DNA from: Acidimicrobiales bacterium | Lineage (GTDB): Bacteria; Actinomycetota; Acidimicrobiia; Acidimicrobiales; UBA8190 | Length of the DNA: 32,095 nt | Assembly (NCBI GenBank): GCA_031292675.1 | Contig: JARLGQ010000304.1 | Span: 1-32,095 of the forward strand | Direction: 5' to 3' | Part shown: one piece after another, positions 27,248 through 31,599 of the stretch | Position numbering within the stretch: the stretch's first letter is position 1 | Layout: each line of letters opens with the position of its first letter | The notes under the pieces: generated by a model | Databases searched by the model: none | What the model was told of the DNA's origin: nothing | The model's input: the letters and a program-made list of their open reading frames with translations, nothing else | Position numbers and translations under genes: made by a program

Positions 27248-28765
27248 TCAGGGCTCGCAGCCCGGGGGTGCGGTGGTGGACCGTGACGCGGTGGAAAGGC
27301 TCCCCACCACGGCGCGGCGCAGTGCGCCCATCCTCGTCGAGGTCACTCGTCGGGCTGCACCGGCAGTGCCAGGGCGCAGGAGGCTGCAGGAGAGGCCCGA
27401 CGCCACCGCCATCGAGGCCGCGTACCACCACAGGTGCCGGAAGTTCCCGAGAGCGGCGACAGCGGTGCGCGGAGTCCCGAGGATGACCACGAGCAGAGCC
27501 ACACCGACGGCGCCCCCCACCTGCCGGGCGGTCTGGTTGACGGCACTGCCGACGGCGAAGCGCTCGGGATGCAGGCTGGATACCGCCGCTGCGCTGAGCA
27601 CCGGGAAGGTGAGCCCGATCCCGAGACCGGTGATCAATGTCGCCGGCAGCCAGGTCGCCAGGTAGGCGGGCTCCACACCGACCCGGGTCGCGTACCAGAC
27701 GAGCCCGCCCGCGAAGCACGCCGTCCCCACGAGGAGCACGCGTCGGAACCCGACGCGGGTGGCGAGCCGACCGGCGGGGCCCGATACCGCCGCGACGACG
27801 AGCGGTCCGGGGGTGACGGCCAGGCCCGCCCGCAGGATGGAGTAGTGCCATACCGAAGTGAGGAAGAGGATGTTGCCCAGGAGCATGGCGAAGAACCCCA
27901 TGGCGTAGAGCAGGGTGGCCGTGTTGGCCACGATGAAGGACCGGGATGAAAAAAGGGTCAGGTCCAGTATCGGCGCAGCGTGACGGGCCGAGCGGTACAG
28001 GAAAGCCGCACCGAGGCCGGCGGTGACGACAAGGCACGCCACCACTCTTCCGCTGGACCAGCCCCAGCTCGGGCCCTCCGAGATGGCCAGAACCAAAGCT
28101 GCCAAGGCCGAGCTCACGAGCACGACCCCCAGATAGTCAGGACGGGCCCGCACCTCCTCGGACTTGGAGTCAGCCAGGACTCGCCGTCCCAACACCCAGG
28201 CCAGGGCTCCGACCGGAAGATTGACGTAGAACGCCCATCGCCACCCGCCAGCCGAGATGAGCGCCGCTCCGAGAGAGGGACCGGTTGCCACCGCCAGGGC
28301 TCCCACCCCTCCCCACATCGCCACGACCTGGGAACGCCGTTCGGTCGGAAACGCACCGAGGAGAAGCCCCAATGAAGCGGGCAACATGGCGGCTGCTCCG
28401 GCGCCCTGCACCAGCCGACCGGCGACCAGCAGGTCCACCGACGGCGCTAATCCGCACAACGCGGACCCCAGGCCGAACACCGCTAATCCGGTGAAGAACA
28501 CGCGGCGGCGGCCGATGCGGTCGGCGGTCCGACCGGCGGTGACGAGCAACGACGCGAACACGATGCTGTAGCCGGTGATCACCCACGCCAAGGCAGCCCT
28601 CGAATCGTGCGGGAAGGTGCGCTCGAGGGCCGGGAAGGCGACGTTGACGATGGAGAGGTCGAGGGACGCCATGAAGGCACCCAGCGCAGTCACCACGAAG
28701 ACCGCCGACCGACGGGCCCCGGCCATCGGCGTGGAACTTTCCGGAAGCGTAGACAGTCCTGTCAC
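27248..28765 (-). CDS. MFS multidrug exporter, DHA2 (14-helix) type
   Basis: A 505-residue proton-driven efflux pump related to EmrB/QacA. Family signs are FMASLDLSIVNVAFPAL in helix 1 (motif D1-like), GRTADRIGRRRVFFTGL in the loop 2-3 (motif A), GRLVQGAGAAAMLPASLGLL (motif B region) and GPSLGAALISAGGWRWAFYVNLP (motif C and the DHA2-type WRWAFYVN). About 14 helices can be counted. I place the start at GTG 28765, 7 nt after a TACAGT -10 and without a Shine-Dalgarno; ATG 28726 would also be valid, and a TTG at 28801 lies upstream of the -10, so it is unlikely. It is divergent from an HxlR regulator with shared -35 elements. Exported compounds are unknown. Confidence 0.9.
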   Translation of the reverse strand: MTGLSTLPESSTPMAGARRSAVFVVTALGAFMASLDLSIVNVAFPALERTFPHDSRAALAWVITGYSIVFASLLVTAGRTADRIGRRRVFFTGLAVFGLGSALCGLAPSVDLLVAGRLVQGAGAAAMLPASLGLLLGAFPTERRSQVVAMWGGVGALAVATGPSLGAALISAGGWRWAFYVNLPVGALAWVLGRRVLADSKSEEVRARPDYLGVVLVSSALAALVLAISEGPSWGWSSGRVVACLVVTAGLGAAFLYRSARHAAPILDLTLFSSRSFIVANTATLLYAMGFFAMLLGNILFLTSVWHYSILRAGLAVTPGPLVVAAVSGPAGRLATRVGFRRVLLVGTACFAGGLVWYATRVGVEPAYLATWLPATLITGLGIGLTFPVLSAAAVSSLHPERFAVGSAVNQTARQVGGAVGVALLVVILGTPRTAVAALGNFRHLWWYAASMAVASGLSCSLLRPGTAGAARRVTSTRMGALRRAVVGSLSTASRSTTAPPGCEP

Positions 28766-28772
28766 GCAACGC

Positions 28773-28801
28773 ACTGTACCCGATTGCGTTTCATAATGCA
28801 A
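28773..28801 (-). promoter_or_regulatory. Promoter of the MFS exporter gene
   Basis: On the minus strand: -35 TTGCAT (28801-28796), a 17-bp spacer and -10 TACAGT (28778-28773), then 7 nt to the GTG. Each hexamer matches the sigma-70-like consensus at 4 of 6 positions. The implied message is leaderless. Confidence 0.6.
28784..28801. promoter_or_regulatory. Palindromic operator containing both divergent -35 elements
   Basis: TTGCGTTTCATAATGCAA is an 18-bp imperfect palindrome: TTGC/GCAA outer arms are exact and the 7-bp arms TTGCGTT/AATGCAA match at 6 of 7 positions. Its left end is the HxlR -35 and its right end is the exporter -35. Occupancy by a regulator dimer would block both promoters, as expected for an autoregulated HxlR protein that controls the exporter. 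Confidence 0.55.
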
Positions 28802-28812
28802 CCCACTAGGCT
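28784..28812 (+). promoter_or_regulatory. Promoter of the HxlR regulator gene
   Basis: -35 TTGCGT (28784-28789), a 17-bp spacer and -10 TAGGCT (28807-28812), then 6 nt to the GTG start at 28819. The implied message is leaderless. Confidence 0.55.
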
Positions 28813-28818
28813 GGGAAC

Positions 28819-29319
28819 GTGGAACGGAAGAGCTTCGCCGATATGGACTGCTCGGTCGCCCAGTGCCTCGAGGTCGTGGGCGAGTGGTGGAGCATGCTCG
28901 TCGTGCGGGACGCCTTCTTGGGCGTCAGTCGCTTCGACGACTTCCAGCGCCGGCTGGGGATCTCACGAAACATCCTCCAGCAGCGTCTCGGACGACTGGT
29001 CGACGAGGGTGTCCTGACCCGGGTGCGGTATTCGGAGCACCCACCGCGCTACGACTACCGGCTCACGGACAAAGGACGCGACCTCTGGCCCGTGCTCACC
29101 GCCATGCGGCAGTGGGGGGACAAGCACGCCGCCCCCTCCGGACCGCCGCTGCAGGTCGTCCACAAGGGATGCGGCGCGATTGTCGATGCCGTGCTGGTGT
29201 GCGCGTCCTGCGGTGAACGCCTCGGTCCGCGAGACGTCGACGCGGTGGCCGGTCCCGGGCACCGACCCGGTCGACCGCTACCGCCCCGGGTGCGCCCCGC
29301 TGACATCAGTTCCGTGTAG
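28819..29319 (+). CDS. HxlR family transcriptional regulator
   Basis: A 166-residue winged-helix regulator starting at GTG. The HxlR core is CSVAQCLEVVGEWWSMLVVRDAFLGVSRFDDFQRRLGISRNILQQRLGRLVDEGVLTRVRYSEHPPRYDYRLTDKGRDLWPVL condensed over residues 11-93, with the RYDYRLTDKG wing typical of the family. Cys11 matches the conserved N-terminal cysteine that senses quinones or oxidants in YodB and HypR. A C-terminal extension (about 110-140) carries HKGCG and CASCGE (His115, Cys118, Cys128, Cys131), which looks like a small zinc ribbon. It very likely represses itself and the divergent exporter. The inducing compound is unknown. Confidence 0.9.
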   Translation: MERKSFADMDCSVAQCLEVVGEWWSMLVVRDAFLGVSRFDDFQRRLGISRNILQQRLGRLVDEGVLTRVRYSEHPPRYDYRLTDKGRDLWPVLTAMRQWGDKHAAPSGPPLQVVHKGCGAIVDAVLVCASCGERLGPRDVDAVAGPGHRPGRPLPPRVRPADISSV

Positions 29320-29477: not shown

Positions 29478-29980
29478 TCAGTGGGACGAGACCGGGGCGT
29501 TCTCGTCTTGACCATGGGACGGTGCCTTCGATCCCAAACTGGCCATATTCGACCTCGATGGTGGGCTCAGCTCGCACAGGCCGTGCGAACCGATGTTGAG
29601 GCCGATATTGCTCACGTTGTAGAGATGCTCGCTCGCGACGAGCCACACGATGTCACAGATCTCCCGCTCGCTGTAGTAGCGGGCGAGCGTGAAAACGTGT
29701 TCGCGGTCACCTGCTTGTTCGACGTGAGCTCGGTCGCATAGTCCAGGGCGGCCCGCTCAGCATCGGTGAACAGTGGGCTCGTGTGATACTCCGCCAGTGC
29801 GTCGAAGCGCGCTGCGTTGTCCGAAGATACCTTCAGGGCGTACCAACGGGACGCGTCCATACAGAACAGGCAGGTGTTGATGCTCGCGACCTGCTCGCGG
29901 ATGAGCACCGCCGTCTGCGGCTGGAGCTCGGCCGAACTCGCCGTGACCGCCACCACACAGCGAATTAGGAGAACTTCCAC
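29478..29980 (-). pseudogene. Broken carboxymuconolactone decarboxylase/AhpD-like gene
   Basis: The minus strand encodes an AhpD-like core: TAVLIREQVASINTCLFCMDASRW with the redox CxxC, then SPLFTDAERAALDYATELTSNK. The homology continues in a different frame as LARYYSEREICDIVWLVASEHLYN and NIGLNIGSHGLCEL. A base loss in the T-run at 29692-29695 would explain the change; adding one T restores a continuous frame. The N-terminal 50 or so residues expected in complete relatives are absent, because the homology begins at about ELQPQ just past the end of the PPOX gene. It is therefore probably doubly broken. A sequencing error could explain the frameshift but not the missing N-terminus. Confidence 0.65.
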
Positions 29981-30588: not shown

Positions 30589-30666
30589 GGTGCGCCCACG
30601 GCGGAGAGAAATCCCTCTTTCCGTGAACGGTGATCGTGAACTCGGTGCGTTTGATGTGCCGCCGGC

Positions 30667-30672
30667 TAGCCT
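30667..30672 (+). promoter_or_regulatory. Candidate -10 element for the leaderless luciferase-like gene
   Basis: TAGCCT is followed by 6 nt and the GTG at 30679; no Shine-Dalgarno precedes the start. No good -35 is seen 17 bp upstream. Confidence 0.4.
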
Positions 30673-30678
30673 TCAACT

Positions 30679-31599
30679 GTGAAATTTTCCGTCACCTACC
30701 CCCTGATTGCGCATCCCTACAGCCCCGACCTCTTGAAAAGGGATGCCCTTGAGCAATTCTCCCAAACCGCCGAGAGGAGCGGCTTCGACGGGATCGGATT
30801 CACGGACCATCCAGCTCCCACCGCCAAATGGTTGCACAGTGGAGGTCACGACGCCCTCGACCCGTTCGTGGCCCTGTCGTTCTGTGCAGCCGTGACCGAG
30901 CGGATCCGTCTCATCCCGAACATCGTGGTGCTCCCATACCGACATCCTTTGATCGTTGCCAAGATGGTGGCGACACTCGACACGCTTTCCGGGGGGCGAT
31001 TCACGCTGGCAGTCGCCACCGGTTACCTGAGAGGCGAATACAAGGCACTCGGTGTCGATTTCAAGCAGCGCAATGCGCTCTTCGACCAAGCGGTCGAAGT
31101 GATCCGCGGAGTCTGGTCAGACGACGACTTCACGTACGAGGGTGCTGGGATCGCAGCCGCCGGCCTCGCCGCCAATCCCAAGCCTTCCCCCCTGCCACCG
31201 TTGTGGATCGGAGGAAACAGTCGTCAGTCCCGTCGCCGGGTGGCCCGCTACGGCGACGGCTGGACGCCGTTTCCGGCACCGCGAGCCATCTCTCAGACCA
31301 CCAAGACCCCACCCCTCGAGACGGTCGAGGATCTGGGGGAAATGCTCGACGAGTTGTGGCGCTTCGTCGATGAGGCAGGCCGCGACCGCGCCGAGATCGA
31401 CGTCGCCTTCGGAACTCCCGAAGGAGGCGCTCCCGGGAGCGAGGCATTCCGGCCTGATGCACATCTCTGGGGTCTCCAGAAACTTGTCGGGCTAGGCGTG
31501 ACCTGGGCTCACACCAGTGTGCCGGGCGACTCGTTGGCCCACGCCCTCGAAACTCTCCAGCGGTACGGCGAGACGGTCATCGCGCCGTCACGAGCCTGA
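30679..31599 (+). CDS. Luciferase-like (LLM) flavin/F420-dependent oxidoreductase
   Basis: A 306-residue TIM-barrel oxidoreductase of the bacterial luciferase superfamily. Landmarks are GFDGIGFTDHPAPT after strand 2, RIRLIPNIVVLPYRHPLIVAKMVATLDTLSGGRFTLAVATGYLRGEYKALGV with the LDTLSGGRF signature and PLWIGGNSRQSRRRVARYGDGW near the cofactor site. Actinobacterial members of this type usually use F420, and the neighbouring PPOX-fold protein fits, but FMN cannot be excluded. It starts at GTG 30679 after a -10-like element. The substrate is unknown. The gene appears lower in GC than those on the left side of the window. Confidence 0.87.
   Translation: MKFSVTYPLIAHPYSPDLLKRDALEQFSQTAERSGFDGIGFTDHPAPTAKWLHSGGHDALDPFVALSFCAAVTERIRLIPNIVVLPYRHPLIVAKMVATLDTLSGGRFTLAVATGYLRGEYKALGVDFKQRNALFDQAVEVIRGVWSDDDFTYEGAGIAAAGLAANPKPSPLPPLWIGGNSRQSRRRVARYGDGWTPFPAPRAISQTTKTPPLETVEDLGEMLDELWRFVDEAGRDRAEIDVAFGTPEGGAPGSEAFRPDAHLWGLQKLVGLGVTWAHTSVPGDSLAHALETLQRYGETVIAPSRA

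Follow-up and report, generated by a model that had tools for sequence, protein, structure and literature searches.

A compact control region with two putative operators between a divergent HxlR-family regulator and an MFS exporter of Acidimicrobiales

The Divergent Gene Pair and Its Relatives

The window considered here, meaning the whole stretch of 32,095 nucleotides that was analysed, is one complete contig of an Acidimicrobiales assembly of 4.02 Mb in 406 contigs. It carries two genes that diverge from a common gap of 53 bp (28766-28818), which is all that separates their GTG codons:

27248-28765, minus strand: DHA2/EmrB-type MFS exporter, 505 aa, GTG start (PF07690, MFS_1, 3.3e-47)
28819-29319, plus strand: HxlR-family regulator, 166 aa, GTG start (Pfam PF01638, 1.2e-23)

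The regulator passes the cut-off of PF01638 for the HxlR-type winged helix-turn-helix domain, and the exporter scores 283.9 bits against TIGR00711 (efflux_EmrB), for which the curated cut-off is 230.2, in line with its assignment to the DHA2/EmrB type. The pair probably consists of a stress-type repressor controlling the drug-type exporter next door. Elsewhere in the window, a reading frame on the minus strand (29612-29980) resembles by eye a fragment of the AhpD/carboxymuconolactone type and matched no Pfam family.

HxlR homologs were gathered from 17 genomes of the family, 397 of the order and a set of named genomes, mostly Acidimicrobiaceae and Acidimicrobiales MAGs, with the addition of Parafrankia, Frankia, Nocardia, and Nocardioides. 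Removal of duplicates left 97 loci, 68 of them with a divergent MFS homolog; the motif described below was built on 95 upstream regions, and 65 non-redundant ones served for leave-one-out testing. The start codon of the regulator lies at the same position in the homologs and that of the exporter is maintained in orthologs; eight loci with a divergent MFS gene have no MFS start at the expected place.

Two Promoters of the Leaderless Type

The gap can be read as two promoters facing away from each other, composed of the following elements:

28784-28789, plus strand: TTGCGT, -35 box of the HxlR promoter (T/T/G at 0.54/0.82/0.76 in 95 loci)
28807-28812, plus strand: TAGGCT, -10 box of the HxlR promoter, GTG 6 nt on (TAnnnT kept in relatives)
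28796-28801, minus strand: TTGCAT, -35 box of the MFS promoter, in the right half of the site called operator B below (CAA, or TTG on the minus strand, invariant in 62/62 loci with the MFS gene)
28773-28778, minus strand: TACAGT, -10 box of the MFS promoter, GTG 7 nt on (TAnnnT kept in relatives)

On the plus strand the sequence thus reads TTGCGT-17-TAGGCT-6-GTG, with the GTG at 28819-28821, and on the minus strand TTGCAT-17-TACAGT-7-GTG, with the GTG at 28765-28763. These paired promoters, with 17-bp spacers and 6-7 nt between a TAnnnT box and the GTG, had been proposed in a preliminary description of this DNA, and every element of it is present at the stated coordinates. The TAnnnT box is moreover conserved: it lies 5-8 nt ahead of the regulator's start codon at 89 of the 95 loci (6.5% expected from shuffles) and ahead of the divergent MFS start in 55 of 64, at exactly 7 nt in 51 of these. 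A core resembling a Shine-Dalgarno sequence is present in only 8 of the 95 HxlR upstream regions, and both mRNAs would begin with leaderless 5' ends. The same type of signature recurs in the window at a luciferase-like gene (30679), where TAGCCT is followed after 6 nt by the GTG (30661-30681).

One position deserves attention because its conservation is linked to the exporter. The C at 28799, corresponding to the G of the TTG in the MFS -35 box, is found in 62/62 loci with a divergent MFS gene vs 20/26 without it (Fisher p=4e-4, a value that is inflated, like the one reported below for operator A, because the loci were picked by regulator homology and are mutually related), which supports the view that the right half of operator B provides the MFS -35 box. 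The comparison of upstream regions supports two divergent promoters of the leaderless type, both with their -35 regions within one conserved site, that have been retained across orthologs.

A Conserved Site in the Gap

The upstream regions share the element TTGCGTTCTATnATGCAACYSACTA, which ends 10-15 nt before the HxlR start in 89/95 of them. Its palindromic core and a related copy near the exporter start are designated here as putative operators B and A:

28788-28802, either strand: operator B core, GTTTCATAATGCAAC, odd palindrome with centre at 28795, placed by conservation and symmetry centre; the extended 23-bp element covers 28784-28806
28756-28770, either strand: operator A, GTCCTGTCACGCAAC, centre at 28763, containing the MFS start codon; a B-like copy 32 bp from B

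In leave-one-out scoring of the 65 non-redundant regions, operator B reached a median of 30.7 bits vs -11.8 for shuffles, and 61 regions exceeded the 99.9% shuffle level. The preliminary description had named conservation in orthologous loci as a check on its palindrome, and by this measure the site is indeed conserved; this conservation sets the gap region far beyond what chance would give.

The position of the symmetry is another matter. According to the preliminary description, the two -35 boxes form the ends of one 18-bp palindrome, TTGCGTTTCATAATGCAA at 28784-28801. This 18-mer is present with 6/9 complementary pairs, yet taken alone it is weak, since shuffling the 53-bp gap 20,000 times gave 6/9 or better in 32% of cases. 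In the alignment the best symmetry centre falls instead on column 11, equivalent to 28795 in the window, within a conserved odd 15-mer, GTTnnATnATnnAAC, at 28788-28802. Mean complementarity over 7 pairs in 89 loci is 0.69 at this centre vs 0.49 at the earlier one (28792.5), 2.5 bp away, so that the 15-mer and not the 18-mer was accepted as the element whose symmetry is conserved. The window's own version, GTTTCATAATGCAAC, has 6/7 pairs, a level that occurs in 5% of the same shuffles. With the conserved core centred at 28795, the HxlR -35 box overlaps it by 2 bp only, while lying inside the extended 23-bp element.

Searches of the same genome for further operators, one allowing as many as 3 mismatches to the 25-mer and one using a degenerate 19-mer, found none. 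The longer operator pattern has four exact matches in 118 genomes; one of these (L131, G078:C45) lies near a contig end, with the gene behind it cut off, and has an A-like copy 32 bp away. In another locus (L019, G002:C14, 1501-1701) the HxlR ortholog is reduced to 67 aa by a large internal deletion, operator B being still intact, and in Candidatus Frankia californiensis (L127) apparently three tandem operator-like copies lie between the two genes, upstream of the HxlR start. A 48%-identical paralog encoded in the window's own genome (L002, G000:C284) has related upstream sites, GTTGTATCACGCAAC and GTCGCATGATGCAAC, 37 bp apart, so that cross-binding is possible. More distant HxlR homologs (L009, L014-L017) have a different-looking upstream palindrome near ACTTGCAAGT, which in several of them stands directly ahead of ACTA.

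A Second Site at the Exporter Start

Where an MFS gene is divergent, operator A follows the consensus GTTCTGTCATGRAAC, and its best match is spaced 32 or 33 bp from B in 54/62 such loci. The start codon of the exporter, which is GTG in the window but ATG in the majority of relatives, sits in its middle. Median scores of 16.8 bits with the MFS gene vs -6.6 without it (p=1.2e-8, inflated as noted) indicate that the site is mostly absent where the exporter is missing. The copy in the window, with 15.5 bits, stands at the 37th percentile of loci with the MFS gene and has a weak left arm (4/7 pairs). When the matrix of B is applied to A, it gives 12.5 bits vs -9.0 for shuffles; since the one matrix recognises the other site, the same protein probably binds both. 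Five loci without an MFS homolog also score high for A, and inspection by eye of the divergent frames at four of them suggested a PaaI-type thioesterase (L091, L120), an SDR (L107), and a molybdopterin oxidoreductase (L094).

Operator A bears directly on the earlier idea that a single dimer, bound to the 18-bp palindrome ending in the two -35 boxes (28784-28801), switches both genes off equally. The 18-mer does exist with its 6/9 pairs and both -35 boxes do lie in the conserved block, so the notion of a shared conserved site survives in the form of B; however, the displaced symmetry centre, the frequency of such 18-mers in shuffled gaps and the second conserved operator at the exporter start render the model improbable. 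It is at best incomplete: the promoter of the exporter has a site on either side, that of the regulator a single one, and therefore one dimer common to both does not account for everything.

Could the conservation reflect nothing else than two overlapping promoters, without any operator? Certain conserved columns do coincide with the -35 and -10 boxes. Against this stand the conservation of the arms (GTT/AAC) and of the centre (AT/AT) beyond any promoter consensus, even where no such divergent gene is present, the uniqueness of the motif (the 4-Mb genome has a single match to GTTNNRTNAYNNAACNNAC, at operator B) and the location of A downstream of the MFS -10 box, where a promoter element is not expected. 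We find this reading hardly credible.

The Regulator Protein

The predicted structure of the regulator (pLDDT 86.9) has its nearest neighbours in two HxlR-family structures of Pseudomonas aeruginosa, PA1607 (2f2e) and PA1374 (4gcv), which are the closest solved structures by sequence as well as by fold, C-terminal extension included. The aligned extensions of these proteins lack the cluster of histidine and cysteines of the regulator here, H115-x2-C118-x9-C128-x2-C131 (HxxC-x9-CxxC), all four residues of which are invariant in 32/32 aligned homologs. Such invariance makes the cluster a trait of the subfamily: the preliminary description was right in seeing it but not in regarding it as an addition to this protein. 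The conserved N-terminal cysteine that it had also pointed out, Cys11, is likewise invariant in 32/32 homologs and corresponds to the helix 1 cysteine typical of HxlR/DUF24 regulators.

Cys11 occupies the same position in HxlR of Bacillus subtilis, the namesake of the family, a formaldehyde-sensing activator in which the signal is perceived through Cys11-Lys13 (PMC7835342). Position 13 of the regulator here is Val, and all aligned homologs have Val or another small residue, never Lys; because Lys13 and with it the Cys11-x-Lys13 pair are absent, formaldehyde sensing as in B. subtilis was rejected. Thiol sensing by the regulator is nevertheless plausible, and thiol-reactive compounds would be the first candidate signals by analogy with family members such as YodB, QsrR, and HypR; a metal would come second.

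The B. subtilis protein also raises the question of the sign of control, for it shows that membership of the family does not by itself guarantee repression. The regulator might activate the exporter, as HxlR does with hxlAB, and repress only itself; in B. subtilis, formaldehyde activates the DNA binding of HxlR and transcription is raised (PMC7835342). We regard this as unlikely for the present pair: A lies over the exporter start and B over its -35 box, both places where polymerase would be blocked, the sensing Lys13 is missing, and both promoters have normal 17-bp spacers. Overlap with core promoter elements or with the start is the usual situation for repressor sites, which favours repression.

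Comparison with Known Systems

A literature search for an HxlR/MFS operator found nothing direct. The Tn10 tetR/tetA system offers an arrangement of this kind, with a repressor and a divergent MFS exporter, a short common gap and a pair of tandem operators spaced by about 30 bp; unlike the pair here, it involves the TetR family, leadered genes and tetracycline as ligand. A gap with two operators is known also for SCO3205 of Streptomyces coelicolor, where two pseudopalindromic operators upstream of the regulator were predicted from orthologs and confirmed by SPR (PMC3737563), but this regulator is of the MarR rather than the HxlR family and its operator is TTnAAnnnTCAA.

Closer relatives of the regulator are the redox repressors YodB, QsrR, and HypR of the HxlR/DUF24 group of Firmicutes, which share the winged helix-turn-helix family and the conserved N-terminal cysteine. 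These proteins lack the C-terminal ribbon, however, and they control mainly quinone or azo reductases instead of a divergent MFS exporter. YodB prefers a palindrome with a 7-bp centre, TACT-N7-AGTA (PMC8063818), which has the same odd 15-bp geometry as operator B with different letters.

Proposed Mechanism and Its Significance

The explanation that we consider rather probable, judging from the conserved sites, is that an autorepressed HxlR regulator and a divergent exporter share a compact control region on which two dimers bind two 15-bp operators. One dimer would sit on B (centre 28795) and one on A (centre 28763), and the distance of 32 bp, about three helical turns, would place both on the same face of the DNA. 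The dimer at B would cover the regulator's -35 region and promoter spacer together with the MFS -35 box, and that at A the transcription start and start codon of the MFS gene; both promoters would thereby be shut, the exporter doubly and the regulator singly. The dimers would be freed by a small molecule, for which a thiol-reactive toxicant that attacks Cys11, close to the dimer interface, is the likeliest candidate; exporter and regulator would then be made from leaderless mRNAs and export would lower the signal. Binding by this HxlR, repression, cooperativity, the leaderless 5' ends and the nature of the signal are all features that we infer.

A broader reading, possible though doubtful, is that of a widespread and undescribed actinobacterial module in which HxlR regulators of a subfamily whose C-terminal ribbon binds metal control a leaderless divergent exporter through two phased operators; the response may be gated by Cys11 as well as by the metal site. 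Since one of the operators contains the exporter start codon, operator, promoter and translation start would be fused in such a module.

The arrangement is a compact version of an already known type: the comparison shows the switch to be real and conserved, with two probable repressor sites and not one. For a large, apparently uncharacterised HxlR group that spans Acidimicrobiales as well as Frankia, Parafrankia, Nocardia, and Nocardioides, it provides a testable operator model of two 15-bp sites, 32 bp apart, in which leaderless divergent promoters squeeze control into 53 bp. At loci in which something else has taken the exporter's place, the gene found beside site A, be it for a thioesterase, an SDR or a molybdopterin enzyme, may help to narrow the signal.
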